Notes under the pieces: generated by a model
What the model was told of the DNA's origin: nothing
Database searches by the model: none
Seen by the model: only the letters and a program-made list of their open reading frames with translations
Program-made: the position numbers and the translations under genes
Shown here: positions 15,401-45,249 of the stretch, piece by piece
Numbering within the stretch: the stretch's first letter is position 1
Layout of the letters: every line of letters begins with the position of its first letter
Source of the DNA: Earliella scabrosa
Lineage: Eukaryota > Basidiomycota > Agaricomycetes > Polyporales > Polyporaceae
NCBI GenBank assembly: GCA_022605405.1
Contig: JABYQQ010000006.1
Location: forward strand, 1,922,001 to 1,986,000
Direction of reading: 5' to 3'
DNA length: 64,000 nt

Positions 15401-16790
15401 ACAGCGTGCTCCACCTACAATCGGAGCTAGACGACATCAAGAAGTTTGTCAACGCGATGCAGACTCACATCGCAACCGAGAATACGAATCCGCAGGCCCA
15501 CCATTTCCTCAGGAGCTTGCAACAGTCGCATGCGCGCACGATCGAGCAGGTTGAAGCCCTCTATGCCTCTTTGAACGTCCCGGAAGAATTCCCTGAGGTT
15601 CTGGGACTGTCTCTGCCTTTTGTCCGAACGCTCGTCATGGCGCGCAACTTGAAAATCAACATCCGGAAGCGCGCAATTGGAAGCTTCTTTGAGTGGGATA
15701 AGCTCGACCGAGCCGCCGGTGGCCGGGATCAGCCTTTAGGTAGGTGTACGTCCCCGCTACTGACAACGCATGATGATTCCGACCTCAATTTTAGGGACCA
15801 AACTACATCAGCATACCCGGAAGGCCATAGCGAAGCGGACACCTGCCCTTCTGACCGCTATTCGGAAGTTCAACGGATACTGCGACACGTTGAAACGCGA
15901 ATACAAGAAGAGTTGGAAGATCCCCTTACCGAAGCATCTCCCGGTCGAACTCGGAGCCCTTCGGAACGATCCCAGCCTCCTCACAGACGTCTGGGTGACC
16001 CCTGTGACCTCCGAGTCTCCAACGCCCCGGTGGCTGGACGACCCAGACATGCGCCGCGGTATTCGCGTGATGCTCGCCAAAGACCGATGTCTCGAGGAGC
16101 GGAGACGACTCGGAGATGAGGCCGACAATCTTTGCAGGTGGTACGGCAACGAACTTGCGGCGGTGGAGCTGGCGCTTCGTACTTCATGCTGTGAGTCGCA
16201 CACTTCTGTCACCGTGATCATTCGCGCCGGTTAACCGCCGAATGTATCCAGATTCACCAATTGCATTTCTTCTTCAGCAACGGAAAGCGGAGCTGCTATT
16301 GCTCCAGGCACGCTGGCGGACTCCTTTGGCATCGGAGCTACGCTTCATATCGCGCACCGAAGAGGCCGCACGCATTGCTGAGCGGCTTTCGGGTACTTCC
16401 CAAACTCAGCCGTTGACATGGGTGCATCTCACCTTCTCCGACGGGCATGAGAATGAAGACCATGCGGAGCTAGAGGACTACTACTGCGACCCGGACACCG
16501 TGCTTGCTCAAGATACTATCGCGCAGCTCGTCGGCGACGACGCCGAGCCTGAGGAAGACGAGGACGCACCTGGACTGCACACAGACGCAATTCTTCCGAT
16601 TGTGGAGCACAACGTTGTTGGTTCACACGCCCCCGGGGTAGCGTTCTCCTTTCCGCCGCCCCCTTCGCTGCATCGCACCCCGCAGAACCCAATCAGGATC
16701 CCCGGACCGGCCGTTGCAGGCGTCTCCGACGATGAATGTACTTCCATCAGCAAAAATCCCCCCGGCCATTTAGTTATCATTGATACATAA
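12485..16790 (+). CDS. KDZ-family DNA transposase, apparently intact
   Basis: Kyakuja-Dileera-Zisupton transposase. Nine exons (12485-13094, 13153-13382, 13466-13643, 13700-14279, 14333-14789, 14842-15039, 15100-15739, 15795-16190, 16252-16790) join in frame to 1275 residues without a stop. An N-terminal Cys cluster (CDCTNRSC...SVTCLYFD, then IQSCSCSP) is the CxC element seen in front of KDZ cores. A zinc pair RCPACFGG precedes the catalytic core: VHVAIDATFSQRHN (first Asp), FYDIGCVLDRS (second Asp) and SEGEGTERVWSKF (Glu), with HAYGHQWSCQ between. A coiled-coil stretch follows, then a long C-terminal region with acidic and Pro-rich tail. The reading frame could still make an active enzyme; terminal repeats were not located. 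Confidence 0.88.
13718..14150 (+). repeat. In-frame degenerate repeat block in a KDZ exon
   Basis: Degenerate tandem units of roughly 39 bp encode Gly/Pro-rich motifs such as GPWEGSNAHSAG, GGPWEGPNSTG and GGPREGATGRL. The block lies between the CxC-containing N-terminus and the zinc pair before the catalytic core. It adds about 145 residues of probably disordered linker without breaking frame. Similar runs continue on either side in weaker form. Confidence 0.7.
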
Positions 16791-16975: not shown

Positions 16976-19900
16976 CTAGAACATTGTCATGTACATATGC
17001 AAGTCGCTGAACGGATTGACAAAGAAATGATCACACGCATCGAGGACCGTACTACTACTCCAGTCTCGGGGTACAAAGCCGTTTCCAGGTGCGATGGGGT
17101 ACAGGTGGCAGCTGCGACGGAAATGCCTGACCTCTACAACGCTTGCTCGCAACGCTCCGTTCGCATCGCGACATCGGCTCACCTTGTAGAGGCCGTGTAC
17201 AGGGTCGGGCTGCGTGAAGGCGGTGAACCACTCAACGTAAGCGAGAGGCCCTGGCGCGATTACATCCGGCATGACTTGCTGGAGGACAGAGCGGGGCAGC
17301 TTGAAGATAAGACGCACTCGTCCTACGCGATAGCCTAGAATGGATAAGATCAGTCTAAGTGCACCAAGAGGACTCGGAGAGCAAAGGACGTACTTTGAAT
17401 GCCAGTTCCCGCGGCGTTAGGCTCCTGCACAAGTACCGTGTCAAAACGGGCAGGAACGTGACGGCCACGTCGGTCCCGACGCGATGGACGCGCATGCACG
17501 GTGTCCTTGACGGACTCCATAATTCCGAGCTGTTGTGCGTCGCCTAGAACAAATTTGACGCGATGAAAGACAGGAAACCTGTTGAATTGATGCAGCACGT
17601 TGAGGGACTCGTGCTCGATTTCGGCGTCGGTGAGAGAGGGATCGCGGTACGAGACAATGAAGCGGGCGAGGGCATCACGGAAATATGTCGCGCCGTAATC
17701 GTTGATGGCAGCACCCATGCGCAACGCCTTGACGTTCGGCCATTTTGCGAGCTTGATCTGCGTATGCGCAGCAGCTGTGAGGTCGTTGGAGCGTGAAGCC
17801 GAGGACTGTGTCGATGACCTTTGCGGGGCTGATGATGGGCCGGGATCGTGCTGAGGTTGGAGCTGGCTCTTCTGGGCCATGCGCTCGAGGCGCCATTTGA
17901 TGTAGGCCTCATGGCGAAGGATCTTCTCGCGCCGTTCGAGCCAGTCCGTCATCTGAGGGAGCTCGTCACGATGGTTCGTGGCGCGATAGGCGTCCTTTGC
18001 GAAGTCGATGTGGAGCCGCTCGGTGTATTGTGTGTCGTAGTTGTCGGTGGTTCCAAAGAGCTTGATTGAGTTGAGGTAGTGGTCCAGGGAATGCAGCTTG
18101 GGGAAGTGGAAATTGGTGCGGATGCCGAGGTCGATGAAGACGTTCTTATTGGCGTGGAACCGCTCCAGGGCATTGCGGAGCAGACCAAGGGAGTCGGAGG
18201 TGTGCGCGGGATACCGAGCGATGTAGAGGAAGTCGAGAATCGCACGCACCGATCGAACAAGTCGGACCGGTGACACGCCATCGGGAAGCAGAAGTCCTAT
18301 CACGAGGCTTAGAAGGAACCGGCAGATGTCCGCGTGCTCCTTGCCGGTCACCTTCTGCAGGGTGGTGACTCCTTTCAGGAAGAGCCGGATATGATGGTTG
18401 GGTGGCAGCCGGCGACAGCGAGCATCGAGTTCCTCAGGACCGTATGCTTGCTTGAGCCAGCTCAAGACGTGCTTGATGACACCTTGATAGAGCTGGTGAA
18501 GGATGTCGGGGGTGATGGAGCGGAAGATGTCGACGTATGGGAGGTTCTCCCAGAAGGGATGGCGTACCGGCTTGATGCCTACAGAGCGGCAGGCACGAGC
18601 GAAGGCGGTCGGTGACTCGTTGATGGATTCGAGCGCGTCGAGTATCTTCTCAAGATCACGGAGTGGCCGTTCGGGGTCTGTTGTGTTGCCGACCTCCGCA
18701 CGAGGGATGTCGCACTTCGGGCATGTGCCGTTCTTGCAGCAGGTCACCATCAGTTGCTCCAAGTAATCCCCTACATACATCGCTACAATAGGATGACCGC
18801 GGCGGACTACACCGTCACCGCTCGCGATCGCAATTCCGTGAATGCCTGCCTTGACGAGGGGCTTGAGGATCATTGTCATGCACGTGTGGAAGAGGTTCGC
18901 GACGACGCGGCGTCGAACTGTCTTGCTCGTGATGTGCTCGAGACGCGAGGCGGGGAGGTAGGCGAGGAGGATTTGGCCGCGGCGTGAGGTCTTACGGCGG
19001 ATGTCCTTTGGGAGATTGCCAATCGTGAGGTACACGGGATACGCCGTCTTGCTTCCAAACAGCGTGAGTTGGGTCTTGTCCGACGAGAGGATGACCGGAA
19101 TGATAGTTGCGCCCGGTTTGCGCTTCTCAATCTCCTTCTGCAGGAAACAGAATGGTGGATACAAGGGAGGGAATCACAGATGGAGGCGGAAAGCGTACCT
19201 GGGTGTCCCACCACCAGCGACCGGTGTGCATGTCGATGTACACTCGGATCGTGTGGTCAGGGTCGGCGTAGTGATGCTCTGGCGTGAACACCAGGATGCC
19301 GGTGAACTCGGGGTCTCTGTACAGTGCCCGGATGCACAGTATGACGTCGCGGTAGAAGACCTCAAACGCTTCCCCGGCAACGATGATCTCGCGGCGCGTG
19401 AAGCGCGGTCACCCGGACGACAACTTCTTGTCAATGATGTCGTTGAGTTCGCGAGAGTTGCTGAAGGAGAGGCCTAGCAGCGTGACAAGCTTTGCGGCGT
19501 TAGTCACTCGGAGACGAACACAGACGATACGGTCTTACCTCCTCGATCTCAAGCAACTCTGTGAGAGCTGTTGAACCGGGACCTCGCATCTTCGCCCAGC
19601 GTGCGATCTCCCAGTCCATGCGAGAGCGAAAGGGCGCGTAGGGATTGACACCGTCCGAGTCAATGACGTCTTGATATCGTTCATACTCGGAGGACATCGG
19701 CTGTTTGTTGATGGGGGCACCGGCGTGAACGCCCGGAAAACGAACGACGTGCGTCCGAGCTCGTAGGTGGTCGTGCGTGCGGCGCTGTGCGGCGCGCTGC
19801 TGCTCATTGTCGTGTGATGTGATGCCGTCGATGTCTTCTGCGAGTCCGGCGGTAGGCCCAGACGCATGTGGCGGGGGCGGAGGCTCCCAGCCAAGTTCTT

Positions 19901-25457: not shown

Positions 25458-26462
25458 TGATGGGTGTGCTCCGGCTCTGTGTGCGGAAAGAAACAACTAA
25501 ACCACACTAAGAAACCAAGAACTCGAGAAGGTGGTGCGAGGTAGGGGATCTGGTTCCCGGGTTCGCAGGACGCGGACGCGGAGTCGACTCTCGAAAGGCT
25601 CTTGCGAAGGATCGCAGAGACCGCGGGGGAAGACTATGGAAGAGAACTCGAAGAGGTGTGGCTAACTCAAGTTCTGCGGAGGGAACCCGCAGGACGGTGT
25701 CTCGAGATGGGAAGGACGCAAATCGCAGGCGCAAACGCAAGTCGCTGTCGCAGACGCAAACGCAGACGCAAACGCACGCGTATTCGCAGAGTCTCGATGG
25801 GTGGGGGATTCGATGATCCGGGGCTCCTGCCCTCGCACTACTCTAACTACACGGTCCTGCGACCGTCCGCAACTCCGGAACGCGACAACCGAAAAACTTC
25901 TCGTAGCAACCCTTCCACCGCCCGCACCGTCCGCCTGATCCTCTCCCAACTGCGCGTGCCTTCGCCACATCCCCGTCCCGTCACCCTCAAACGCGGTCTT
26001 CGATCGCAATCTCGCCTCTCGACGAATCAGCCTCGAGGCTACCGGACGGTGGCTGTGCCCTCGATCCTCGGCACGTCCCTCCGCACGATCGCGTCCTCGC
26101 GCTCCCAAGTCTCGTCCGTCGGTCGCGATAGCTCGCAAGCTCGTGAGTGGCCAGCTTCGCATGACTCGGCCGAATGCCGCGCTCGCGACCCCCGCGCGCG
26201 ATGTTCTTCCGCATCCTTGGCTCGCGGAACGTGCGTCCGAGGCTGCCTCGTCCCTCGCGTTGCGGAGCTCCGACCGGACCGTCGGGGAAATGAAGGGGTC
26301 TCGAAGTCGCGCGTGTTTTCGTGTGGTAGGGCCGCGCGCAGTCGGAAGGCTGGTGGGGCGCGGCTGCCGTCCGCGGGAAGGTCGCGCGAAGGGTTCGCGC
26401 GAAGGCGCGTCGCAGAGCGCGGGTCGACGAAATCGGGGCATGGCCGGTGCAGGTGCACAACA
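25458..26462 (-). repeat. Gypsy 3' LTR (1005 bp)
   Basis: Same length as the copy at 44245-45249 and the same frames on both strands; both run TG...CA. As the element reads on the minus strand, this is the 3' LTR. Its outer end abuts CCAT and the unknown gene at 24543-25440, which lies in the same orientation and could be reached by LTR-initiated transcripts. Confidence 0.93.
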
Positions 26463-26472
26463 TCTCCCCCCC
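26463..26472 (-). promoter_or_regulatory. Gypsy polypurine tract
   Basis: On the minus strand GGGGGGGAGA lies directly before the 3' LTR, the position and composition expected of the primer for plus-strand cDNA synthesis. Confidence 0.85.
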
Positions 26473-26514
26473 GCTAATATCGGGACTGTCCCCAGTCCCT
26501 CGAAGACGGACGGG

Positions 26515-26522
26515 GATAAAAG
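26515..26522 (+). promoter_or_regulatory. TATA-like element of first antisense gene
   Basis: gataaaag lies 36-43 bp before the ATG at 26558, within the 95 bp between LTR and gene. The promoter therefore belongs to the element or overlaps the LTR. Assigned by sequence only. Confidence 0.45.
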
Positions 26523-26557
26523 GGGGGAACGCGCAGAAAGGGTTTCCGCACCTAACC

Positions 26558-27144
26558 ATGTCTTCGCCGCTTCCTCCGGACCTTCGCGAACGCGCCATCT
26601 CCGTCGCGATCCAAGCTCTCGAGCGAGCCGTCTTCGACCTCGAAACGCTCGCAGACGCCAACACCGAGTCGGACGCGGGTCACATCGCGGACATGTACAT
26701 CGGGATCATCCAGCTCCTGGTATGTCCTGTCTGTATTCCGTCTCGCGTGCGCTAACCCCGCACTCGTAGCGTCCGCTCATAGTCTTCAACTCCTCGCTTA
26801 ACGCGGCGGCGCAATACGTGACTCGCACGCGCGACGCGCTTGAACGCGGTTGGCCCGACTTTGGGACGCGCTTCGCGAACGAGTTCTCGGACCAGGTTGT
26901 CGGGGTCCGCCGCAGCGCGCGTCTCGACAGCTTGATGACCGAGGTTGCCGCCGTCCGCGTTCGACTCCGCGAAGTTCGCCTCATCCGCCAGACCCTAGCC
27001 CGCGCCAACCAACACGACGTCCACTTCCTCATCCGCCTCGACGACGTCATCCTGGCCTTGGACCGCGAACAGACGGGGCTCGACTTCGAAATAGCGGCGT
27101 TGCGCGACCAGAACAGGCGGGCGCTCCTTGCCGCGGACTGCTGA
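26558..27144 (+). CDS. Antisense accessory gene A1 of the gypsy element
   Basis: Exons 26558-26719 and 26770-27144, with a clean 50-nt GT-AG intron, encode 178 residues. No family recognised. The protein is predicted almost wholly helical, with two Arg/Leu-rich heptad-like stretches (VRVRLREVRLIRQTLAR; LDDVILALDREQTGLDFEIA). It runs opposite to gag-pol and starts 96 bp inside the 3' LTR. Its intron would be read backwards in the genomic RNA of the element and so kept during retrotransposition. Layout and intron position resemble gene A2, suggesting an old duplication. Confidence 0.72.
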
Positions 27145-27322
27145 GGGATGTTCGCGATGGGCGGCCGCGGCATAGGGGTCGCGGGGAACGGTCCATAGAG
27201 GGAATAGGGTAGATCGCGATTGTCGTTGATACGGAAATTCTGTAGCCCTTGAGACGCCACCAGTGTCGAGGGATTTAAGTCGTCGAGCGTCGCAAAGACG
27301 TCCCGCAACATCCTCTCGCACC

Positions 27323-27967
27323 ATGCCTTCGCTGGGTTCCCAGATGGTTGAGCGCGCGATCTCGTACCGCGAAATGATCTCGCGGTTCTACCCTCTCGTC
27401 CGCCTTCGCACCGAGCACCTGCTTGACGCCATAGACACCCAAGTTGCCCGCGGCCCCGGTCCGGGTCCCGTTGGTGCCGGCACCGCTCTAGACTTCGCCC
27501 TTCTCGTCGACCAGCTTGCGGAGTGTTACGTGAGCGCTGCTTCCATTTATGATCGCCGGCGCCGCTTAATGAAATTGCAGATCATCCTCACCGCGCTCCT
27601 CGAGGGCGACGGCGAATTCCACTCCGGCGTCAAGGATCGACTCCGCCTCGCGTTCGCGTCGGTCGAGGGCGGCCCCACGCTCGTCGAGCAGTTCAACAAG
27701 ACCGTCGACGCCGCGCGCCCCGGTATCCGCTTGAGGTACCTCGAGGCGTATCGCGCTGTCTTCGCATACGAGCAGGCCACCGTCGCTTCCATTCAACAGA
27801 TCGCCGCGCGCCAGCTGTCGCACGTCGCCGGAGAAGCCCGCGCGCGCGTCAAATTGCTGCAGGACGACATCCACCGAATTGACCAGGAGACTGCCCGACT
27901 TGGAGGCGCAGTCCCTCAGCGCAGGTCCCTGATTGACCGCCTCGACACTGGTTCTGAGGAGTTCTGA
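27323..27967 (+). CDS. Antisense accessory gene A2 of the gypsy element
   Basis: An open frame of 214 codons from an ATG in good context (cacc before ATG). A stretch at 27530-27580 (gtgagc...ttgcag with a ttaatg branch-like site) is a likely 51-nt intron that happens to be in frame; spliced, the protein is 197 residues. No family recognised. Helical, with a C-terminal coiled-coil-like segment (RVKLLQDDIHRIDQETARL). Like A1 it opens with an ERAIS motif, has the probable intron at a similar place, and ends with a DD..I/L-D-x-E helix, so the two may be paralogues. Confidence 0.68.
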   Translation: MPSLGSQMVERAISYREMISRFYPLVRLRTEHLLDAIDTQVARGPGPGPVGAGTALDFALLVDQLAECYVSAASIYDRRRRLMKLQIILTALLEGDGEFHSGVKDRLRLAFASVEGGPTLVEQFNKTVDAARPGIRLRYLEAYRAVFAYEQATVASIQQIAARQLSHVAGEARARVKLLQDDIHRIDQETARLGGAVPQRRSLIDRLDTGSEEF

Positions 27968-28200
27968 GGAGGAAGGGGCGGCGATGTAGCGTAGAAGCCC
28001 GCGACCCTGTACTTCGCCGCTCGTCGAGTTGAAATTGTAGTGCGCGCGCGCAGCTCTTGTCCGCCGCGTCCGAGTTCATAACGCGTGCCTTCCGTCCGGT
28101 TCGCCCTTCAGCCCCTCTTCTCGTTCCGCCTTCCGCCCCTCGCCCAACTCGTCCCTCGTCTTCTTCGTCTCAGCCCATCCCGCACACCCGCCTCGCCACC

Positions 28201-30231
28201 ATGTCCTCGCCTCCGCCTCCCGAGTCCTCCAACACCATGGACACCCGCGCCGACGATCCCGCGACCGACGCCGCCAAAGTTGAGCTCCAGTCCAACGACG
28301 AAGACCTGCGCGTCGGCACTCCGTACGCGCCCGACGAGCTGCAAGAGCTCCTCCGCCTGTACACGCCCGAGGAGCTCCAGTCTGGCGGCGAGGAGGCCGC
28401 GAAAGACTTCGCGCGCCGTTTTGTCCACATCGCCGTAAGTCCCGCGCCCCTTCGCGACTCCTGTCCGCAGCCACTAACCGCTTCGCAGTACTCGCTCGAG
28501 GACCCGTTCCAGTCGGACGACCTCTTCCCGGAGTTTTGGGAGCGGTTCGCTCCGCACGCCTCCCCTCGCTTGCAGGAGGTCGTCCTCCTCGTCTTCTCGG
28601 TTCGCACTCGCGAGGCTCGGAGTGCCTCGCTCGAGGTGGAGCTCGCGGACTTGGAGACCAGCCGCCCGGACCACACGACCACGCCGCGCCAGGAGAAGGT
28701 GGTGAAGGCCCGCATATTGGTGACCGACTGGGAGCGTAAGTCCTCGCGCGCCCCTCCTCTCTTGTCTTCTTCAGCTAACCGTCCCTCTTTTTGTCCCCCA
28801 GTCAAGCGCATCCGGGAGATCAAAGACTTCCGCCTGCTCAGGTCGGAGCCCATTCCCCTCCCGGTCGGCCTTGCCATCCTCGCCGGCGGCCTCTCTCGCC
28901 ACTACCCTCGCCGCTCGACCGCGGAGCCGCCTAGCGCGCCCGTGACTCCCGGAGCGCCCTCGCGTGCACTGCTCCCTCCCGCGACGATCTCGACTCCGGT
29001 GCGCATCAAGAAGGAGAAGCCCGATCCCGTGCCGGCTAAGGGCAAGCGCCGCGCGGTCTCGCAAGATGTCTCCGCGGACGAGGCTGATGCGGCCGCTGAC
29101 TCCGATGTCGTCGAGGTGAGCGAGGTCGTCCGTCCCCCGCCTGCCCACGGCACGCGCGCGCAACGCAAGGAGAAGATCGCCGCGCGGCCCGAGTCCGTCC
29201 GCAAGAGGGCCAAGGTCGTTGAGGTCTTGGAGTCCGAAGAGGAGGAGCTCGCGACCGCCGCAAAGCCCGATGACGCCGCAGACGACCCGCCCGCCTCCAC
29301 TACGCCCGCCGCCCCCGTCGCCATCCTTCCCAACTCGAAGTACGCGCTCGAGTTCTTCGAGCCCTGCGACGAGTGCAAGACGCGCAAGTTCCCCATCTGC
29401 GTCCGTACGCACGACGAGCGCGGCCTCTCCTGCGACTTCTGCGGGCACCGCTCGCGGAACATGCAGTGCACCCGCCGCGGCCTGAACTCGTACGGCGAGT
29501 TGAAGACCAAGAGTAGGTCGACCTCCGTCGCGCTTCGTCGGTTCTACGCTGACTCGTCCCTTGTCGCAGAGAAGGGCGGTCGGCTTCTCGCGCAGTACAA
29601 CGGCATCGGTTTCGTCTTCCGATCCTTCAAGACTCAGCTGCCCGAGTACCGCGTGCAAGCTGTCCAGGCCGTCCGCGCGTTCGAGAACGACCCGCCCAAG
29701 ATTCGCGTCGCGCGCCCGAAGGAGCTGGCCGCGCGCGCTGGGCCTCCCGCTCCCACCGTCTACCCCATCATCGACCAGAACGGGTTCCTCCTTGAGGCCT
29801 ACGATGGCGCCGCGCCCGAGAAGTCCGCGAAGGGCCCGCCGCTCCCGGAGTGCTACCCGCCGGAGAAGACCCCCGAGCCGACGCCTGCGCCCGCGAAGAA
29901 GAAGAAGGCCAAGACGTCGTCGGAGGGCGCGTCGGCTTCGGCTTCGAAGTCGTCTCGCGAGGTCGCCCCGCCTGCGGACCTAAGCCCGGCCGTGTCGAAG
30001 AAGGTCGCCGCGTGCCGCAAGCGCGCGAACGTTTTGCTCGGCGAGATCGTCGAGCACGTCGAGGAACTCATTGCCGTCCGCGACCAGGAGGAGGAGTACA
30101 CCGGCCAGGACTTCGGTGAGGCCGACCTGGACGATTCGGTTCGCGTTCCCGACCTGCTGACCTTCGCGGAGGTCGTCGACTCTCGCGAGTCCGACGCGCG
30201 GGTGTGGACCGTGCTCTGCAAGAACCAGTAG
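28201..30231 (+). CDS. Antisense accessory gene A3, putative zinc-binding
   Basis: Exons 28201-28434, 28489-28735, 28802-29512 and 29570-30231 encode 617 residues. All three introns (54, 66, 57 nt) happen to be in-frame lengths without stops. Regions in order: acidic N-terminus with DELQELLRLYTPEELQ; a predicted helical domain (FPEFWERFAPHASPRLQEVV); a disordered Lys/Pro/Ser linker with nuclear-localisation-like runs (RKRAKVVEVL); a Cys-rich motif (CDECKTRKFPICV then CDFCGHRSRNMQC) that could bind zinc; a Lys-rich linker (AKKKKAKTSS); a helical end. No known family recognised. The basic linkers and Cys motif suggest a nuclear nucleic-acid binder, by inference only. Confidence 0.75.
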   Translation: MSSPPPPESSNTMDTRADDPATDAAKVELQSNDEDLRVGTPYAPDELQELLRLYTPEELQSGGEEAAKDFARRFVHIAVSPAPLRDSCPQPLTASQYSLEDPFQSDDLFPEFWERFAPHASPRLQEVVLLVFSVRTREARSASLEVELADLETSRPDHTTTPRQEKVVKARILVTDWERKSSRAPPLLSSSANRPSFCPPVKRIREIKDFRLLRSEPIPLPVGLAILAGGLSRHYPRRSTAEPPSAPVTPGAPSRALLPPATISTPVRIKKEKPDPVPAKGKRRAVSQDVSADEADAAADSDVVEVSEVVRPPPAHGTRAQRKEKIAARPESVRKRAKVVEVLESEEEELATAAKPDDAADDPPASTTPAAPVAILPNSKYALEFFEPCDECKTRKFPICVRTHDERGLSCDFCGHRSRNMQCTRRGLNSYGELKTKSRSTSVALRRFYADSSLVAEKGGRLLAQYNGIGFVFRSFKTQLPEYRVQAVQAVRAFENDPPKIRVARPKELAARAGPPAPTVYPIIDQNGFLLEAYDGAAPEKSAKGPPLPECYPPEKTPEPTPAPAKKKKAKTSSEGASASASKSSREVAPPADLSPAVSKKVAACRKRANVLLGEIVEHVEELIAVRDQEEEYTGQDFGEADLDDSVRVPDLLTFAEVVDSRESDARVWTVLCKNQ

Positions 30232-30902
30232 GGGCCTCGCACTCTCGTCGCGGGGCGCGCCTCAGTCGTGCCGCTATCGCAGCTCCGCTGTTGGCGCGCA
30301 CATTCCGCGATCCTGGAGCTCGTGAATGCTGAGGCCGGTCCTCGCAGTCGCGCTTCGCGGGTCGTGGTCGCAGGCCGCTCCGCCGTGGTTCCCGGGCTTC
30401 CCTTTCTCGTCGTCTTCGTCCTCGCGCTCGCCCGTCTCGCTCTCCCTTCGCATCCCGCTCTCGCCATCGCTCTCGCCCATCCCCCGCATCGCATCGCATC
30501 CCAGTCCCGTCCCGTCTCGAACTCGTGTCCCGTCGTCAAGTATCGTAAAAATGTATCGTAAAAGTAGTCGTAAGCTTCGTTTTGTGGCTGTTGTTTTGTA
30601 GTTTTTGTTTTCGTCGTTTGCTTTCTTGTTTTATCAATAAACTGTGTGATAGAAAGAGTGTGTGATTGACTTAAGTAAAAGTGTGACTGGTCTTCGAAGT
30701 AGTAAGTAAAGGAATGTCCCGCAGGGAAGTCCCGCGGGACGGTTCTGCGGAAAGAGTTCGCGAAATGGGTATATAGTAAGGAAAGTGTGTCGCAAAACAA
30801 GGCCGCGATAGGCGTTCGCGGGCTGTCGAAAGTCAGAGTTCGGAAATCGAAAAGAGCAAGTGATCGCAGGATAACCGTGTCCGAGTCATGTATCGTACCT
30901 CC
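30232..30902 (+). other. Non-coding stretch after gene A3
   Basis: Probable 3' UTR of A3, becoming AT-rich after 30540, with a polyadenylation signal. In the element's own sense this separates pol from the antisense module. No further gene seen. Confidence 0.5.
30636..30641 (+). terminator. Polyadenylation signal of gene A3
   Basis: AATAAA in a T-rich context about 400 bp after the A3 stop codon. Confidence 0.5.
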
Positions 30903-30916
30903 TCCCCCCCGCTAAT
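30903..30916 (-). repeat. Second polypurine-tract copy
   Basis: The 14 bases tcccccccgctaat occur here and at 26465-26478, next to the 3' LTR. The copy lies about 45 bp beyond the pol stop codon and marks the inner edge of the antisense module. It may work as a second plus-strand primer site or mark where the module was added. Confidence 0.7.
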
Positions 30917-30962
30917 GTTGTCGACGTCCTCGTCGACGTCCCATCTTCGCGCACAAGAGCGC

Positions 30963-32945
30963 CTAATCTTCTTCGGCCTCCTCGGGCTCTCCCAGCCCTT
31001 CGTCCTCAAACGTCTCCTCGCTCTCCTCCATCTCGCGGATTCGTCTCGCGTCGACATCTAAGTCCTCCATCCTAAAAGGTATGGGGCTCTTCCTCGCGAG
31101 ATACGGGATCAGTCGGAACGCGGCGATAGGGCGATCGTGCACGGCGCCGTCGAGTTCCGCGACGATGTAAGCGCCGCCCCGGTTGCGCGAGATGACCACC
31201 AGCGGACCCAAGTACCGCGCGCGCATTTTGCGGTTCAACGACTTCTCGATCGCAGTATTCCGCATGAGGACCAGACGACCGGGCTTGAAGTCGAAAGCCT
31301 TTGTCGTATGCGCGTGGTGTTCCTCGTACAGTTCCGCGGCGCGAACTCGGCTCGCGTAGACCTTCGAGCGCAGTCGCGACATTTGCTCGGGGCGCTTCTG
31401 CAGGGCGATCGCGCGCTGGGTGATGAGCTCGGTGGTCGAGATCATTTTGTTAGCCGTCGGCAAGAGGTAGGTTGCTTCCGCGATGTCGAGGGGCATGATC
31501 GGGTGCGTGCCTGTGACTGCATAGTATGGCGAGCAGCCCATTCAGCGTCGAACAGTGATCCGGTCCGCCCAGAGGACAGAGTAGACTCGCGAGACCCACT
31601 GACTCGGGTCTCCCTCGCAGGCCTTGTAGAGTGCGTCGCGTACGTGGAAGTGCGGGCGCTCGACGATTCCGTTCGCCTGCGAGTTGTAGCCTGAGATCCG
31701 AATGTGGTAGACGTGGTAGGTCTTCGCGATGTACTCGAGCGCGGCGACAAAGGGCGTCCCGTTGTCCGAGATGATCTCGCAGACGGCGCCCCAGCGACAA
31801 AGCAAGTCCTGGTAGATCCAGTCGCCGATCGCCTTCGCGGTCTGCGCCGTGCTCGCGCGTCCTTCACAGTAGGTCGTCATCGCGCAGCGCGCGTGGAAGA
31901 AGTATCGGTACCGCCCCGGCATCTCCATGCAGTCGACGTGCACACGCATCATCGGGGGCGCGGGGATGGGGACCGTTGGGGGAATACGAACTTTGGTGGT
32001 CTGTCGCACTTGGCACTGATGGCACGACCGCACGTACCACGCGATGTCCGCCTTCATCTCGGGCCACCAGAAGCGGTCCGCGAGGAAAGAGGTTGTCGCG
32101 GCAATCCCGCGGTGTCCGACATAGTCGTGCATCTCGACGAGCGCTTGAGGTCGCTTCTCCGCCTCGAGGACGCGACGATGGTGCCCATCGCGTCCTACTT
32201 TCCACAGGCGGTCGTCGCGGAGGAAAAACTGGGAAGCGTACTTCGCGAACTTATCTGCCTCGCGTGATTCCATCGCGGGTCGTTCGCCAGTCGCGAGCCA
32301 GTGTTTGACTTCTTCGATTCTGAAGTCGAAGTCGCGCGCGATCGCGGTTCGCGGAAAGTCGCTGTACGGCGGCGGCGCGATCACAGGGAGCTTCGCGGCG
32401 GTTCCGCTCGTCTGCTGCATGAGAGTCTCGACCTCGTCGATGCTTCGCGGGACTGAGAAGTCGATCGCAGCGTCCCCGAGTCGCGGAGGAGGGTTTATAA
32501 GGTGCATGAAGCCGTACATATTGTCGACCCAGTCCTCGAACTCCTCCCCGTCGTCCTCGTCGGGCTTGTCGTCTGGCTGCGCGGGTCGTCTGCTGAGTCC
32601 GTCCGGGGTATGGCGCTTTCCCGGAACGTGCACGAGGTCGAAGTGGAACATCTTGATCGCGATGATCCAGCGATTCATCACCGCAGATGGCGCGACGTCA
32701 GGGTTCGCGAGCATGTCCTTAATCGCGGTCGCGTCCGTCTCGACGACGAGCTTGCGCACGCCTACCAAATGGAAGCGGAGCGCGCGAAGCGCGCGGAAAA
32801 GACCGTAGAGTTCGAGTTTCGGCTGCGAGAACCTCGCTTCGCGATCGTTCAGGGTGATGGAACAGAACCTGCTGTAGTAGCGCTTCCTCGGGTCCTCTTG
32901 GTCCTCTTGACATAAGTGGAAGCCGACCGCGATCTTAGACGTATC
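30963..32945 (-). pseudogene. Gypsy pol, second part: RNase H and integrase
   Basis: Continuation of pol beyond the copia insertion. It begins inside RNase H (KLELYGLFRALRALRFHL; ETDATAIKDMLANPD; VPGKRHTPDGLSRR). The integrase has a His/Cys zinc domain (HDYVGHRGIAAT ... CHQCQVRQ), core residues in VDCMEMPGR, IISDNGTPF and IVERPHF, and a C-terminal LGPLVVISRNRGGAYIV segment. An in-frame TGA at 31542-31544 sits between RITVRR and MGCSPYYAV, where an Arg codon (CGA) would be expected. The frame then continues open to an acidic end at 30963. The 5-bp GTATC at 32941-32945 is the target duplication of the copia element. Confidence 0.88.
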
Positions 32946-38897: not shown

Positions 38898-39477
38898 TGA
38901 TGAACTTCAGACCTGGAAGGCTGGGAGCCGACTGTAAGTCGAACAGAGAGAGATCTTCAGTCAGTGAGCGAACGACTATATTGCATAGATAAGTACCTGT
39001 AAGTCGAACAGAGAGAGACTACAAGTACTTAGTCAGTAAGTAAGTAGAAGGCATATGTATGTATGAGACTTACTCTTCAGTCAGTGAGCGAACGACTGAA
39101 GAGCAGAGGCGAAATGTGAGCTGCTTATATAGACGTAGGGAAGGTAGCTGAGTAAGCGTAGAAAGCAGTCACATGTTAGCCACAAGACGATGAGTAAGAG
39201 GCATACGAGGCTATGGTGCGAGGATGAGTCAGTATGACGCGAGGATGAGCACCAAGTCTGAGTCAGACATAAGGTCTGGAACTATCCGGAACATCGTAGA
39301 ACGCACTGGTACGTAGAGGTAAAGTCCGGAAAGAAAGAACTATCGTACAGATGCAGAGTTATCTATATATAGTAATGAAGAAGCATAGCCCATGCTGTGC
39401 GTCATGTGAACGCATAGCCACAAGTCCATATGGGGACATATCGGTCCGGATGCTGCCGGATAACCCTAAGTTCAACA
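38898..39477 (-). repeat. Copia 5' LTR (580 bp)
   Basis: Matches the left LTR except for an extra TA in a tatata run near 39366. Carries the same internal direct repeats. Confidence 0.93.
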
Positions 39478-41372
39478 GTATCGACGGACAGAATCACGGG
39501 AGCGTCGGACTCGTAGTCGATCGCGCGGAGCGCCGGGGACGCGAGGAGCGCGTCCTTGAGGGTCTGCATCGCAAGCTCTTGTTCCGGGCCCCACTCGAAC
39601 TGCGCGTCCTTTCGCAGAAGACGGTTGAGAGGGTGCGCCTTCGTTGCGTAGTCCTTGATAAAGATCCTCGCGACTCCGACGGTCCCTAGGAAAGCGCGAA
39701 CCTCAGACACATTGGCACACGGGCCCCAATTCAGGACAGCCTCGACGCCTTTCGGTTCCGGGACGCGACCTTCCGGGGTGCAGTGGTGTCCGACCGCGGT
39801 GAACTCCGGCGCTGCGCACCGAATCTTCTTCCCGCTGAAGGTGCCTCCTGCGTGCTTGACTCGCTGAACGATCCGATTGACGTCCTGCAGATGCTCCCAC
39901 ACGTAGCGCCGAACTCCGGGATTCTCGGGGATCGTCTCGTAGGTTCCGTCCTCGCGGCGGTATGCGCTCGCGGGACCGATCACCGTAACGTCGTCGATGT
40001 AGGGGATAGTGTACGCGGGGATCTCGGGTTGTAGGATGAAGGTTACGTCGTCGTGGAATATGGGAACTGAGTTCGCCCAGCCCATAGGAAGTGTGGTGAG
40101 GCGCATCGCGCCGAAGGGTGTTTGGAAGGTGGTAAGGTCTCGCGACTCTTCTTCGAGCTCGCGTTCGTCATAGCCGACGTAGAGATCGAGCGTGGTTCCG
40201 CAGGCGCGTCCCGCGAATCTCTCCGCCATATGGTCGGGGATCGGGGGCACGCCGCTGTGCTGAATCGTGACCTTGTTCAGCGGCTCGAGCGAATGGACGA
40301 TGCGGATGTTCCCGTCCTTCTTGAGCACGCAGAACCATCGCGAACGGTAGGACGCGTTTGACGGCTCGTAAACTCCGGAGTCGATCTTCTTGCGGATGAG
40401 CGCGATGACCTGATTGTAGATGCCGGGAGGGATGGGGAAGTTCTTCTCGATCCACGGAACATGCGGGATGACCGCGAGCTTAACCGGCGGGAACATGTCG
40501 CGACGGAAGTGCCCGCGCTCGGAGTCCTCCCAAGCGAAGCCCTCGTTCTGCTTGCACATCATGTCGTCGAAGATCGCGAGTTCCTCGGGCGTCAGCCACT
40601 CCGCGTGATCCTCGTGCAGCTTCTCGCGACGCTCCGCGGTGTAACGTCCGGTGGGTTCGAAAGGTTTGGGGTTGGGGTCTAGTGTAGGCATGTTCTCGAG
40701 AGGGTCGCCGATGTGGTTTCGGACGATGCGGAAGTGTTGTGGGAGCTCGGTCGGCATAGGGTTGACCTTGAGCGCTACCGGTTTGTACTTCTTTTTCGTC
40801 TTCAGCAGTACTTCGACCTCCTCCTCTTCGCATGTGGGAGTCGCAGGACGGCCGTCCGGCTTCGCTTCGCGGGGTCTCGAATACGAACCCGATCGTGAGC
40901 GCACCGGACGCCGTCCGAGAGATTTCGTAGGGTAGACAGGCCTGACGCGCCCACGTGATCGCGTCCCGCGGATCGCGTCTGTAGGCGCTCGGGTATCTGG
41001 TGTCGCGCGACCGCGCTCCGGCTCGGAAGTCGTCGCATGAGGGGTATCGGTCGCGCGGGTAGAGTCGAGGGAAACCGAAACTCGAGACTGAGAGTTGAGA
41101 TATGTATGGATTTCTGGTTTTACGCTGGGGTCGTCGCTCGCTAATAAATACGCTTCTTGGATCGCGGTAGCTGAGGTATCTTCGAGGGCTCTATGCGCGG
41201 TGACGTATATCTGCCTCGTTTTCGCGTCGTAGTCCAGGACGAGGGCCACCTCTCCCTGACCGGAAATCAGATCATCGAAGTCCGAAAACCCGCGCGCGAC
41301 GTCTGCGATTGTTTCGGGCCTTCGCCTCGCGCATACGTCGGTAGGGTGAGCTCGCGGCGCGAGTTCGGACAA
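39478..41372 (-). pseudogene. Gypsy pol, first part: reverse transcriptase
   Basis: Pol opens in the -1 frame relative to gag, overlaps its end, and is cut by the copia element at 39478. After a disordered Arg/Pro/Ser-rich lead, the RT shows FPIPPGIYNQVIALIRKKID, RWFCVLKKDGNIRIVHSLE, LDLYVGYDERELEEESRDLT, FQTPFGAMRLTTLPMGW and the catalytic YIDDVTV, followed by the connection domain (GVARIFIKDYATKAHPLNRL) and the start of RNase H. No internal stop was seen in this part. With the copia removed, the target duplication rejoins part two in frame. Confidence 0.9.
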
Positions 41373-43849
41373 CGAACGGTGATCGTCTGACGACCGTCTG
41401 GCTTATTGACTACGGTGCCGGAGACTAAGACGTCGAAGGGTCGACCGAGGAGGACGTCGTAAGAGGCGTTCCGCACGACGTGCATCTGTAGGTAGACGAC
41501 GACTCCGGGGCCGAGTTCGACTGCGACGTTCCTCGCGAGACCGAGCGTAGGGTCGACTGTGCCGTTCGCGCTGACCATCCGCAGACTAGAGGACGGGTCG
41601 TAAGGGATCTTGAGCTCGAAGCACTTCGCCTCGCTGATCGCGACAATCTGCGAGCCCGGGTCGAGAACGCATTCGGTCGGGACGTCCGAGTTGTTGACAT
41701 GCGCGAAGATAGACCTCAACTTGTGAGTCTTATCCCCGACGACGATGTCAGGTCCGACGTCCTCGTCCTCATCGCGCGAAAACGCTCCGCGGCGTACGCG
41801 GTACATCCCGCGGGGTAGCTCCTCGTCTTCATCATCCGACTCCGCCTCTTCGACCGTCTGGGACGCCTTCTTCTCCCGCGAAAGCTTGAAGGTCTCCGCT
41901 TCATCCCCGCTGTGCGTCCACACTGTCGGTTCGTCCTCCTCCGGGCAGTCCTGCACGAACGTCTTGTACGCCCGGCCCTTCCCCTTATCCTCGCCCTTCT
42001 TCTTCGTCCGCTCATCTCCCTCGTCTTCTTCGTCCTCTCCCGCAGCTTTCTCCCGCGCGGCGCGAATCGCAAACCGGCGCGAAGACGTCGCGTCGTTCAG
42101 CATCTTCCGGATCCCCGGAGACACGCTCAAGAGCTCGACCGGGGTCATCGTGACCGACTGCGCTTCGCCGAAGCTCCTCTGAAAGACTCGCTTCTCCGCG
42201 TTGGGGTCTACGATCGCGGCGGTGTGACGGTACGCGGGCTCGGTCCGCGAAGGAGCGTCGGCCGCGCTGTTCGCGCGCCTGTGGTTCCCGAAGGCGAAGT
42301 CGCGCGCGATAGGCTCAGCTGTGACTGGGGGCCGCGTCTTCGAGTATGGGTGGATCGGGATGTTCTCGTCGTCCTTGTCGCGCGAAGGGCCTTCATCCCG
42401 CGCGACCCGCTGCTTAGCCTCCGCCCGGTCTGACAGGTGCGGTGGCGCATCGCGCTTCCGCGGCTGCTCGCGATCCTTCTCAGACTCCTCCCGCGTGTGC
42501 TTCTTCGGACGCGTCGTGATCTCGACTCCGTCGAACCGGACCTTGCGCTTCTGCTTCTCGAGCTCCAGCTGACTCTTGAGCTCACCCGCGCGCTGCATCA
42601 AGACTGCGAGTTCCTCCTCGATCGTGCTCTCGCTCTCCTTCGCGCCGGCGTAGTACGGGTCTTCCTCGGGCTCGACGACTAGCATCATGTGGCCGACTTG
42701 GGTAGGGTTCTTCTTGCCGGGATTGAGGTCGTGCCAGACTAGGACGCGCTCGCGCATGCAAGTCCCGGGAAGGTTCCGAGGGACGAAGGTGCCTTTCGGA
42801 AGGAAGATACGTCCTCCATCGCCGCGTTCGATGAGACCGTTCGCGAGATCTTCGCGGGCCGCCGGGCAGGTCTTAGAGTGGCACCCAGCGGTCCCGCAGT
42901 AGAAACAGTTTTGGTCCTCGCCTGCGAAGCCCAGTCCCGCATTGCTCAGCCGGACGTTCGCAGGGGGTCCTCGCGGTATGTCGTTCCGCTGCCAGCCTCC
43001 TCCTCGCGGCGCGTCGTCGCGCGGGAACCCTCGCTGTCCTCCGTTCTCATTGCGGAACAGGGTACGAAAGGTCTCCGTCATCGCGCTCAGCATCTCTTGT
43101 TTGAAGGACTCCAAAGCCGGCTCCTGCTTGACTTCGCGCGCGGGCGTCTGCGCGCTCTGGGTCGCGAACGCCGAAGTGCCTAAGAGAGACGACCCCGCGC
43201 CGGACCGAAACCGATGGTCGGAGCCCTGAAGGAGTACGCCGAAAGGGCCTTGGTCTTCGAGGCAATAGGTCATAGCCTCGTGCACTTCTGCGACGGAAAA
43301 GGGGTCGCTCGGGTGCTTGTCGGGGACCTTGTTCGCGAGACGAGCGCTAACGGCTGCGGCCTTCTCGGGCGGGACAAGGCTGAGGAGCGCGGCTGCAGCG
43401 TCATCCTCTGCGATGCCGGGTCGCGGCTTCGTCGAAAGGTATCGGAACATAGGATAGAACTTCCGGTAGAACTCGGAGTATTCCTCGAGAGTGTGAATTC
43501 CCTTCTCGCGGGTGTCGTTGACTAACTTGTTAAGCTGTGCCCGTGACCAGATGTGACTAGAGTCCGATCCGACGTAGAACCCCAAGACTTCGTCGCGGAA
43601 CTTCTCGTAGGTGTCGGTAGGTCCCTTGTTCGTGAACGTCTGCAAGACCTTCCAGGTTTTCGCGACGTCGATAGGCACGTAGAGGAGCGCGGCCTTTTTC
43701 TTCTCTTCTTCGGATGTCACACCCTCGCGCGCGAGTAGGCGCTCGAGCTCCTCGAAGTACTCCGCGACGGCATCTCGCGAAGACGGATCGTACCGCGGAG
43801 CCTCCTTGCTTCGCTTCAGGGGTAGCTTGTCGAATCCGGTAGAAGCCAT
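41267..43849 (-). CDS. Gypsy gag with C-terminal protease
   Basis: 860 residues from the ATG at 43849 (MASTGFDKLPLKRS). Capsid-like helical region at about residues 20-200 (YFEELERLLAREG, WSRAQLNKLVNDT), a zinc knuckle-like C-x2-C-x5-H-x3-C (CFYCGTAGCHSKTC) near residue 315, a long Lys/Glu/Arg-rich linker, and a retropepsin-like domain at about 715-820 (TECVLDPGSQIVAIS ... YDVLLGRPFDVL). The active-site motif reads Asp-Pro-Gly-Ser instead of the usual Asp-Ser/Thr-Gly. Placing protease at the end of gag, before the frameshift, means it is made in gag-like amounts. Confidence 0.88.
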   Translation of the reverse strand: MASTGFDKLPLKRSKEAPRYDPSSRDAVAEYFEELERLLAREGVTSEEEKKKAALLYVPIDVAKTWKVLQTFTNKGPTDTYEKFRDEVLGFYVGSDSSHIWSRAQLNKLVNDTREKGIHTLEEYSEFYRKFYPMFRYLSTKPRPGIAEDDAAAALLSLVPPEKAAAVSARLANKVPDKHPSDPFSVAEVHEAMTYCLEDQGPFGVLLQGSDHRFRSGAGSSLLGTSAFATQSAQTPAREVKQEPALESFKQEMLSAMTETFRTLFRNENGGQRGFPRDDAPRGGGWQRNDIPRGPPANVRLSNAGLGFAGEDQNCFYCGTAGCHSKTCPAAREDLANGLIERGDGGRIFLPKGTFVPRNLPGTCMRERVLVWHDLNPGKKNPTQVGHMMLVVEPEEDPYYAGAKESESTIEEELAVLMQRAGELKSQLELEKQKRKVRFDGVEITTRPKKHTREESEKDREQPRKRDAPPHLSDRAEAKQRVARDEGPSRDKDDENIPIHPYSKTRPPVTAEPIARDFAFGNHRRANSAADAPSRTEPAYRHTAAIVDPNAEKRVFQRSFGEAQSVTMTPVELLSVSPGIRKMLNDATSSRRFAIRAAREKAAGEDEEDEGDERTKKKGEDKGKGRAYKTFVQDCPEEDEPTVWTHSGDEAETFKLSREKKASQTVEEAESDDEDEELPRGMYRVRRGAFSRDEDEDVGPDIVVGDKTHKLRSIFAHVNNSDVPTECVLDPGSQIVAISEAKCFELKIPYDPSSSLRMVSANGTVDPTLGLARNVAVELGPGVVVYLQMHVVRNASYDVLLGRPFDVLVSGTVVNKPDGRQTITVRCPNSRRELTLPTYARGEGPKQSQTSRAGFRTSMI
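41285..41291 (-). promoter_or_regulatory. Gag-pol -1 frameshift site GGGTTTT
   Basis: Minus strand G GGT TTT fits the X XXY YYZ slippery heptamer and lies in gag codon register, 15 nt before the gag stop. A one-base backward slip continues as Phe-Ser-Asp-Phe in the pol frame. A downstream pseudoknot or stem was not evaluated. Confidence 0.8.
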
Positions 43850-44244
43850 GGGTGGCGTAGTTGCGATAGGAAGTGGATTGAAAGGGATAGGGGGTGGGAT
43901 AGGGAAAGGGGGTAGAGATTGGGTTCGCGGGCTTGCTCGCGGAAGGATTTCGCGGAGAGGGGTATGGAACGAATCGCGGGGAGAGTCCTCGAGATCGGTA
44001 AGAGGGGACGAACCGAAGATGTCTAAATCGATCCGCGTTCTAGGTGTGCGGGGGACCTCCAGCTGACTTCCGCGGGGCGATGAGCCTGCGTCAGAGTCTT
44101 CGATGGGGGTTAATTCCGCGTCGAGTTCTTCGCGAAATTGTCGGAGGGCAGCGGCCGTCCTTTCGATGTAGATGTCGAGGGAATCGTCTAGGGACCTGTT
44201 ACCGGCGGTGGCAGATTTACTCCCCCTCGCGGTGGGCTCCAGAA
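43850..44244 (-). other. Gypsy 5' leader with primer binding site
   Basis: 395 bp between 5' LTR and gag. Three bases inside the LTR, minus-strand TGGAGCCCACCGCGAGG (44225-44241) has the form of a PBS complementary to a tRNA 3' end with CCA. The implied discriminator base is U, which would suit tRNA-Cys, but the tRNA was not verified. Confidence 0.7.
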
Positions 44245-45249
44245 TGATGGGTGTGCTCCGGCTCTGTGTGCGGAAAGAAACAACTAAACCACACTAAGAA
44301 ACCAAGAACTCGAGAAGGTGGTGCGAGGTAGGGGATCTGGTTCCCGGGTTCGCAGGACGCGGACGCGGAGTCGACTCTCGAAAGGCTCTTGCGAAGGATC
44401 GCAGAGACCGCGGGGGAAGACTATGGAAGAGAACTCGAAGAGGTGTGGCTAACTCAAGTTCTGCGGAGGGAACCCGCAGGACGGTGTCTCGAGATGGGAA
44501 GGACGCAAATCGCAGGCGCAAACGCAAGTCGCTGTCGCAGACGCAAACGCAGACGCAAACGCACGCGTATTCGCAGAGTCTCGATGGGTGGGGGATTCGA
44601 TGATCCGGGGCTCCTGCCCTCGCACTACTCTAACTACACGGTCCTGCGACCGTCCGCAACTCCGGAACGCGACAACCGAAAAACTTCTCGTAGCAACCCT
44701 TCCACCGCCCGCACCGTCCGCCTGATCCTCTCCCAACTGCGCGTGCCTTCGCCACATCCCCGTCCCGTCACCCTCAAACGCGGTCTTCGATCGCAATCTC
44801 GCCTCTCGACGAATCAGCCTCGAGGCTACCGGACGGTGGCTGTGCCCTCGATCCTCGGCACGTCCCTCCGCACGATCGCGTCCTCGCGCTCCCAAGTCTC
44901 GTCCGTCGGTCGCGATAGCTCGCAAGCTCGTGAGTGGCCAGCTTCGCATGACTCGGCCGAATGCCGCGCTCGCGACCCCCGCGCGCGATGTTCTTCCGCA
45001 TCCTTGGCTCGCGGAACGTGCGTCCGAGGCTGCCTCGTCCCTCGCGTTGCGGAGCTCCGACCGGACCGTCGGGGAAATGAAGGGGTCTCGAAGTCGCGCG
45101 TGTTTTCGTGTGGTAGGGCCGCGCGCAGTCGGAAGGCTGGTGGGGCGCGGCTGCCGTCCGCGGGAAGGTCGCGCGAAGGGTTCGCGCGAAGGCGCGTCGC
45201 AGAGCGCGGGTCGACGAAATCGGGGCATGGCCGGTGCAGGTGCACAACA
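44245..45249 (-). repeat. Gypsy 5' LTR (1005 bp)
   Basis: Copy of the LTR at 25458-26462 with no difference noticed by eye. It carries the promoter for gag-pol transcription in its minus-strand sense. Followed outward by the target duplicate CCAT. Confidence 0.93.

Follow-up and report, generated by a model that had tools for sequence, protein, structure and literature searches.

Three antisense, intron-bearing genes as a conserved module of a Ty3/gypsy retrotransposon family in the fungus Earliella scabrosa

The DNA stretch considered here, hereafter the window, comprises 64,000 nucleotides of the basidiomycete Earliella scabrosa (assembly GCA_022605405.1, contig JABYQQ010000006.1, positions 1,922,001 to 1,986,000) and contains a Ty3/gypsy retrotransposon which carries three plus-strand genes, A1, A2 and A3, between its 3' long terminal repeat (LTR) and the stop codon of pol (30963-30965), antisense to gag-pol. 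We found this module to be an integral, coding, selected and intron-bearing part of the element in two gypsy lineages, with a hairpin and a polypurine tract at each of its ends, and in one chimeric locus it has been exchanged together with a part of the LTR. The best explanation of these observations is that a fungal Ty3/gypsy lineage carries the module as a permanent set of accessory genes. Gene A1 (26558..27144, 178 aa) contains one phase-0 intron (26720-26769), A2 (27323..27967, 197 aa) shares this layout with one phase-0 intron (27530-27580), and A3 (28201..30231, 617 aa) contains three introns (28435-28488, 28736-28801 and 29513-29569). A preliminary description of the window had proposed three spliced antisense genes at this place, with one intron in A1, probably one in A2 and three in A3, and the gene models presented here agree with it, most firmly for the A1 intron and A3 intron 2.

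Relatives of the element were searched for in the 51.7-Mb assembly, and the resulting locus counts are lower bounds. The search with the module yielded 21 matches, corresponding to 17 loci once the pieces of each element are merged (window copy included), plus a 39-nt match on contig C11, and the search with the 3' part of pol yielded 17 loci of the same family, 16 nearly whole and one partial, together with a sister lineage at 71-77% identity. All the copies found that retain the 3' pol also hold the module (17/17). Module and pol are directly joined in 16 of the 17 loci; in L024 both are there, and about 2.6 kb of other sequence replaces their junction. Target duplications of 4 bp were recognized in all 14 copies tested for their ends (L025, L026 and L027 were left out), eight of which have identical LTR pairs, while the LTRs of the rest differ at 1 to 6 positions, with a 13-column gap in one copy. 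Since the module is present in every copy found, target duplications flank all those tested and the LTRs are near-identical, the module transposes together with the element, recently and repeatedly, and the proposal that it belongs to the element and travels with it is upheld. According to the preliminary description, family copies lacking the module would have pointed to a chance nested insertion; such copies, as well as solo modules, were sought in the genome and none was found; one copy of a more distant family, L031, shows no module. Furthermore, protein searches of the genome with A3 and with its sister-lineage counterparts C3 and B2 gave no match outside such modules among the best candidates scored.

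As a separate observation, the target duplications are centred on CG in 13 of the 14 copies (the CG frequency in the window is 0.096), the CCAT of the window copy being the exception, which suggests a target-site preference of the element.

Judged on their sequence, A1, A2 and A3 behave as spliced genes, beyond what would be expected by chance. In the 17 aligned copies, GT-AG ends occur at 82 of the 82 introns present, and the frames of all three genes are open from ATG to stop in 14 copies, the others being L025, where a stop occurs close to the end of A2, and L026 and L027, which are broken. With respect to the window, the exons of 14 copies (L026 and L027 left out) show only one indel, an in-frame loss of 36 nt, and zero frameshifts; A3 intron 2 shows three frame-breaking indels in the same comparison, with a length of 64, 65, 66, 67 or 68 nt across copies, and the noncoding parts of the module show many indels, the truncated copy L024 probably accounting for the long ones close to the 3' end. 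The remaining introns measure, in the window, 50 nt (A1), 51 nt (A2), 54 nt (A3 intron 1) and 57 nt (A3 intron 3). Only for the A1 intron and, by virtue of its length changes, for A3 intron 2 does the frame demand splicing. The A2 and A3 introns of the window copy are open and have lengths that are multiples of three, so that the A2 intron and A3 introns 1 and 3 can be read through, and the search with the A3 protein retrieved a single ENA protein, which is A3 itself in its intron-read-through form. It follows that the support for splicing is weaker for these three introns than for the A1 intron and A3 intron 2.

When the 15 introns of the three module types (the window type and the B and C types of the sister lineage) are considered together, 12 of them contain the branch-point motif CTRAY within their final 45 nt (shuffles: mean 1.3, maximum 6), the A2 intron being without it, and all 15 start with GTRNG, the introns having been chosen partly by their ends. 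TATA-like boxes, a loose motif counted without a chance control, lie 43-82 nt 5' of the ATG in eight of the nine genes, window A3 being the exception, and the product of the sister gene B1 of locus L009, spliced as predicted, is identical to a deposited Earliella scabrosa protein. It is the backward orientation of the genes that lets introns persist in this retrotransposon; their survival through retrotransposition had been anticipated, and is what one would expect if the RNA of gag-pol sense is the template.

The ratio of nonsynonymous to synonymous substitution rates (dN/dS; Nei-Gojobori, pooled over all pairs of five copies, namely the window copy and L022-L025, the pairs not being independent) is 0.08 for A1, 0.14 for A2 and 0.18 for A3 in the predicted frames. 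One antisense frame per gene also shows a low value (0.15, 0.18 and 0.29), always above that of the predicted frame and probably due to coinciding degenerate positions, and the integrase end of pol gives 0.05-0.10 (five copies against the window). In the sister lineage, the comparison of L009 with L010 gives about 0.14 for B2 and about 0.10 for B3, B1 being identical, with one splice donor lost in L010. Between B3 and C3 dN amounts to 0.65 with dS about 1, and for the small proteins dN is 0.19 and 0.12; unlike C3, C1 and C2 are not fast-diverging. The dN/dS values point to purifying selection that keeps the module coding.

The sister lineage is represented by the loci L009, L010 and L011 (on contigs C1, C11 and C23), whose integrase ends are 66%, 65% and, in two pieces, 61% and 75% identical to that of the window family, and by a fourth locus, L048, which is cut by a contig end. 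Each of the first three carries two A1-like genes and one A3-like gene, placed and oriented as in the window. In particular, A3 is about 25% identical to the sister A3-type proteins and matches the B3/C3 profile with an E value of 2.4e-11 and a probability of 97% over a region that covers a cysteine motif and the C-terminal half, while A1, which we regard as homologous to B1 and B2, matches the profile of the small B and C proteins with an E value of 2e-4 and a probability of 47% (BLASTP, 3e-5). Moreover, A3, B3 and C3 all have their intron 2 in phase 1 within one and the same Leu codon of the alignment. Taken together, these comparisons indicate that a homologous module is common to the two gypsy lineages. 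A homology between A1 and A2 was also considered, and despite their like layout the profile comparison gave it no support. As regards more distant families, no module was seen in L031 (integrase fragment 51% identical) and L029 (36%), with one copy judged for each, and tblastn found no module match in L032 and L033 (best E value 0.021); L030 was too broken for its family to be scored. The A3-type profile matched none of the 7990 candidates scored among the database proteins, and the small-protein profile matched 18, of which the 16 examined are all variants or fragments of the window, B or C types.

A hairpin and a polypurine tract occur at both ends of the module, at the LTR and after the pol stop, an arrangement that the preliminary description had missed. 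The external tract (26464..26478, minus strand, with the sense sequence ATTAGCGGGGGGGAG) is unchanged in all 15 copies whose module alignment reaches that end, and the same 15 nt recur at the pol end, between module and pol (30902..30916, minus strand), where they are unchanged in 14 of 16 copies. In L009, L010 and L011 the tract has a different sequence, which is again identical at both module ends. Each module tract is preceded, in the element sense, by a hairpin with a 7-bp stem and a 4-nt loop, located in the window at 26482..26499 (external) and 30920..30937 (internal), both on the minus strand. Among the window-family copies, 14 of 15 have an intact external stem (L025 has lost it), and 12 of 16 retain all seven pairs of the internal one, with six pairs in three copies and five in L025.

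The covariation of the hairpin was evaluated on six distinct sites typed in register, five from module-bearing lineages and one from L031. All 42 cells are paired, and each of the seven pairs shows changes on both sides; none of 500 shuffles reaches these pairing and covariation scores, and a shift of the partner by one to three columns lowers the pairing to 7-38%. The measure of further pair types is reached by 110 of the 500 shuffles, and the folding scores of the six hairpin sites of the module lineages are modest against plain shuffles (z from -2.0 to -2.7), with z -0.9 for the L031 site at the LTR. A hairpin beside a polypurine tract is a possible cis signal of reverse transcription. In L031 (1020-1140), two similar tracts lie about 80 bp apart between the pol stop and the LTR with nothing between them, and the hairpin is found only at the LTR tract, not at the second one. 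Because this locus has two tracts without a module in between, the tract may have been doubled before the module came in, or L031 may once have had a module and lost it.

The comparison of L009 with L011 in 100-nt steps, where the U3 part of the LTR is named by position and the U3/R border is unmapped, identifies L011 as a natural chimera. The pol sequences beyond the stop codon are 94-100% identical (81% in the last, edge step) and the LTR parts away from the tract 96-99%, against 36-82%, with one gap-rich step at 17%, for the tract-side LTR part (U3 by position), the external tract and the module. L011 thus combines a B-type pol and one part of the LTR with a diverged tract-side LTR part and module of C type. 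The two loci have identical internal hairpins and tracts and differ at several places in the short stretch from hairpin to pol stop, which puts the switch point either at the internal hairpin-tract or at the adjacent pol stop. The chimera may be the outcome of two template switches, namely a first-strand transfer in the LTR to another RNA and a return near the internal hairpin-tract, and other types of recombination are possible.

The remaining parts of the element lie on the minus strand. The 3' LTR (25458..26462, 1005 bp) is 100% identical to the 5' LTR (44245..45249), and the CCAT duplication flanks the element on both sides. Between the LTRs, we recognized an open reading frame (ORF) for gag and protease (41267..43849; gag-asp_proteas, 1e-6), a pol ORF with reverse transcriptase (39402..41372; RVT_1, 6.6e-8) and the 3' part of pol with the integrase (30963..32768; Integrase_H2C2, 1.3e-18), pol being split in the window copy by a nested copia element with identical 473-bp LTRs (32945 to about 39369). 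The order of these domains on the minus strand and the identical LTRs are those of a Ty3/gypsy element, and a coding antisense gene between pol and the 3' LTR, present in 17 of 17 copies, places it among the elements with antisense additional ORFs of the aORF-3R type; it does not fall in the class with Env-like ORFs, as its extra ORFs are antisense and not sense. A candidate primer-binding site, TGGAGCCCACCGCGAG, begins 3 nt past the 5' LTR in the element sense (44190-44250), and the window, the sole region examined, contains no tRNA matching it. Near the 5' LTR there are an ORF for a TET/JBP-type oxygenase (45914-46447, minus strand; Tet_JBP, 1.2e-17) and one with a sub-threshold Zn_clus match (48687-49472, minus strand); elsewhere in the window we noticed an ORF with a partial KDZ transposase (14893-16119, plus strand) and a Plavaka transposase (17350-19164, minus strand).

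With regard to the proteins, A3, B3 and C3 share an aligned six-cysteine motif, in A3 C-x2-C-x7-C-x10-C-x2-C-x8-C (29365..29469, plus strand), which comes near the fungal Zn2Cys6 cluster, and all six cysteines of C3 are in the motif. The spacing of the Zn(2)Cys(6) cluster is C-x2-C-x6-C-x5 to 12-C-x2-C-x6 to 8-C; A3 has 7 residues and B3 and C3 have 8 in the second gap, the other gaps fitting, and the scores of B3 (14.8 bits) and C3 (11.3 bits) lie below the Pfam Zn_clus cut-off of 21 bits, with no match for A3. Lys/Arg-rich runs, recognized by eye in the same three proteins, would suit nuclear import. The earlier suggestion that A3, with its Cys motif and its basic runs, would suit nucleic-acid binding is partly supported, in that the features fit but no domain passes the threshold. 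The A3 type gave no match to solved structures. Two candidate similarities of the small proteins were discarded: six matches to solved structures at E values of 0.05-0.5, five of them to the SH3-containing GRB2-like protein 2, were taken as coiled-coil noise, and a weak Pfam match to FliX (0.012, one of five proteins) was taken as chance.

We tentatively propose, at somewhat less than an even chance, that the module proteins are element-specific nuclear regulators. Such a role is favoured by the fact that the genes stand apart from gag-pol with their own starts, that the part of A3 best kept between the lineages includes the Cys motif, and that a part of the LTR and the module have been exchanged together. 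Each gene would yield a transcript antisense to gag-pol, probably started at a promoter of its own, which would be spliced and then translated; the sense genomic RNA would be reverse transcribed with the module introns unrecognized in it, so that intact genes are copied. The most likely place of action of the proteins would be the nucleus, where they would work in trans on their own element, A3 as a putative DNA- or chromatin-binding factor serving activation or anti-silencing, with the small proteins A1 and A2 as partners. The tract-side part of the LTR and the module would be exchangeable together, and the hairpin-tract repeated after pol could perhaps offer a matching place for a template switch of the reverse transcriptase. 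It is possible to go further and to hypothesize, although we hold this extension to be doubtful, that the promoter part of the LTR and the antisense genes make up a swappable regulatory cassette, which passes from one gag-pol backbone to another when templates are switched at the paired hairpin-tracts, and that the internal tract also primes plus-strand synthesis, so that the module becomes double-stranded early and its genes are readable from unintegrated complementary DNA (cDNA) while the remainder of the element is still incomplete. If this were the case, the promoter and the trans-acting regulators of a retrotransposon would be inherited as one swappable unit.

Repeated motifs in the LTRs were considered as candidate binding sites. 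The 8-mer ACGGACGA occurs five times in the 745-bp sister LTR (L009:2032-2776), about 100-fold denser than its background of 0.07 per kb, and CTGCGA occurs seven times in the 1005-bp window LTR, against a background of 0.64 per kb. The link of these motifs to A3 is only a lead, and one that the position of the motifs weakens.

Several points weigh against the proposed explanation. The LTR motifs were picked post hoc, only ACGGACGA exceeds the top 8-mer of the shuffles (7 against at most 5, over all noncoding parts), and, of the occurrences in the two LTRs, four of five ACGGACGA (sister) and six of seven CTGCGA (window) are on the side away from the tract, outside U3; because the motifs are mostly outside U3, a nuclear-regulator role loses some ground and two of the rival readings gain slightly. 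In the profile comparison A2 found no match outside its own family and none to the sister genes. The other introns of the A3 type agree less well than intron 2, since intron 1, in phase 0 in A3, B3 and C3, is 25 columns apart in A3 (in a weak stretch of the alignment) and intron 3 of A3 differs from that of B3 and C3 in both place and phase. Pfam and profile scans of A1, A2 and A3 revealed no domain above threshold, and the structure model of the Cys motif is poor (pLDDT, the predicted local distance difference test, 70, from a single sequence; best PDB match at an E value of 3); with so weak a model and no usable match, a zinc ribbon and a Zn2Cys6 cluster are equally possible. Finally, the joint exchange of LTR part and module is seen at a single locus, and the evidence as a whole comes from one genome and 17 database proteins.

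Among the rival explanations, we consider it rather unlikely that the module proteins serve the replication cycle, in particle assembly, nuclear import of the cDNA or choice of the integration site. The presence of the module in all the copies found, a selection nearly as strong as that on pol and the basic runs, which would suit nuclear import too, are in line with such a role, and the CG-centred targets imply that some targeting factor exists, although this factor need not be part of the module; however, separate, antisense, intron-bearing genes suit independent expression, replication-cycle proteins being usually made in sense with gag-pol. A role against host defence that does not touch the DNA of the element, for instance by blocking RNA silencing or another host factor, seems to us less likely still. 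The fast, arms-race-like divergence of the A3 type (the B3-C3 dN given above, compared with the small proteins) speaks for it, as does the fact that antisense transcripts and genomic RNA would form double-stranded RNA and call for a counter-measure, but A3 is under purifying selection within the window family (0.18), and the profile searches made revealed no similarity of the module proteins to a known suppressor.

That host genes or another mobile element landed in the gypsy element by chance and have been passively carried since could be suggested by the multi-gene inserts that occur in transposons and by the two 15-nt end tracts, which at first resemble terminal repeats. The occurrence of the module in all 17 family copies found, the homologous module with its own paired tracts in a second lineage, the selection and the lack of matches outside modules among the best candidates scored refute this for the window family and leave it very improbable. 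Even more improbable is that the antisense RNA alone matters and not the proteins: antisense transcription by itself can regulate a retrotransposon, according to the available text of PMC7264820, but codon-level selection, the kept exon frames and protein homology at about 25% identity argue against it, and dN/dS refutes it as the sole role.

Antisense genes in LTR elements are already known, mostly from plants, and what this family offers is a fungus with many recent, near-identical copies, three selected intron-bearing antisense genes, a second lineage and a natural chimera, a family in which the role of antisense accessory genes becomes directly testable. The preliminary description knew of no intron-bearing three-gene cargo in a fungal gypsy element. 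A correction is due in that an antisense gene as such has a fungal precedent: the Boty-like elements of Botrytis, cited in the available parts of PMC7264820 and PMC8365987, are gypsy elements too and carry an antisense gene, brtn, located between pol and the 3' LTR; the likeness is drawn from the citing descriptions and not from sequence, and they mention one named gene, against three here. The literature search, with most subscription papers outside its reach, found no report of a basidiomycete gypsy element that carries three antisense genes with introns together with a paired hairpin-tract, nor of any set of three antisense genes that all contain introns.

In plants, the aORF-3R lie between pol and the 3' LTR in all or most copies (PMC7264820 and PMC11963269, as far as their available text goes), and thus resemble the module in place, antisense direction and prevalence; different from them, the module has a fungal host, three intron-bearing genes, a hairpin-tract at both ends and no Pfam domain (the general Pfam scan of the antisense proteins gave 0 families above cut-off, with the presence of TRP28 in Pfam unchecked). 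The product of the Retand antisense ORF is predicted to bind DNA and has a TRP28 domain (PMC11963269), and the word intron does not appear in the available text of that paper, whereas the module has introns; gene23 of Grande has its own promoter, and its product is called nuclear in a paper title cited in the accessible part of PMC7264820. In the same portions of both papers, the function of antisense genes of LTR elements is described as yet to be determined. The HBZ gene of human T-lymphotropic virus 1 (HTLV-1) is antisense and spliced, with an exon in the 3' LTR, and suppresses the viral activator Tax (available text of PMC2386809, PMC5797633 and PMC3736048); being a single gene of a human retrovirus with an unrelated protein, it offers an analogy only. 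VANC of the Arabidopsis VANDAL elements is an accessory protein proposed to act on the noncoding DNA of its own element (PMC10398659, in part), in DNA transposons for which binding and silencing loss are reported, whereas the module is known from sequence alone. Bongo3, a chromovirus of sugar beet, has an additional polypurine tract at the pol stop codon, as here, with neither a hairpin pair nor an antisense module described in the accessible portion of PMC3605345. Lastly, the LTR elements of bdelloid rotifers with ORF3 express extra genes from separate spliced messages (PMC5408684); these encode other types of protein, and the part of that paper at hand describes no antisense placement.

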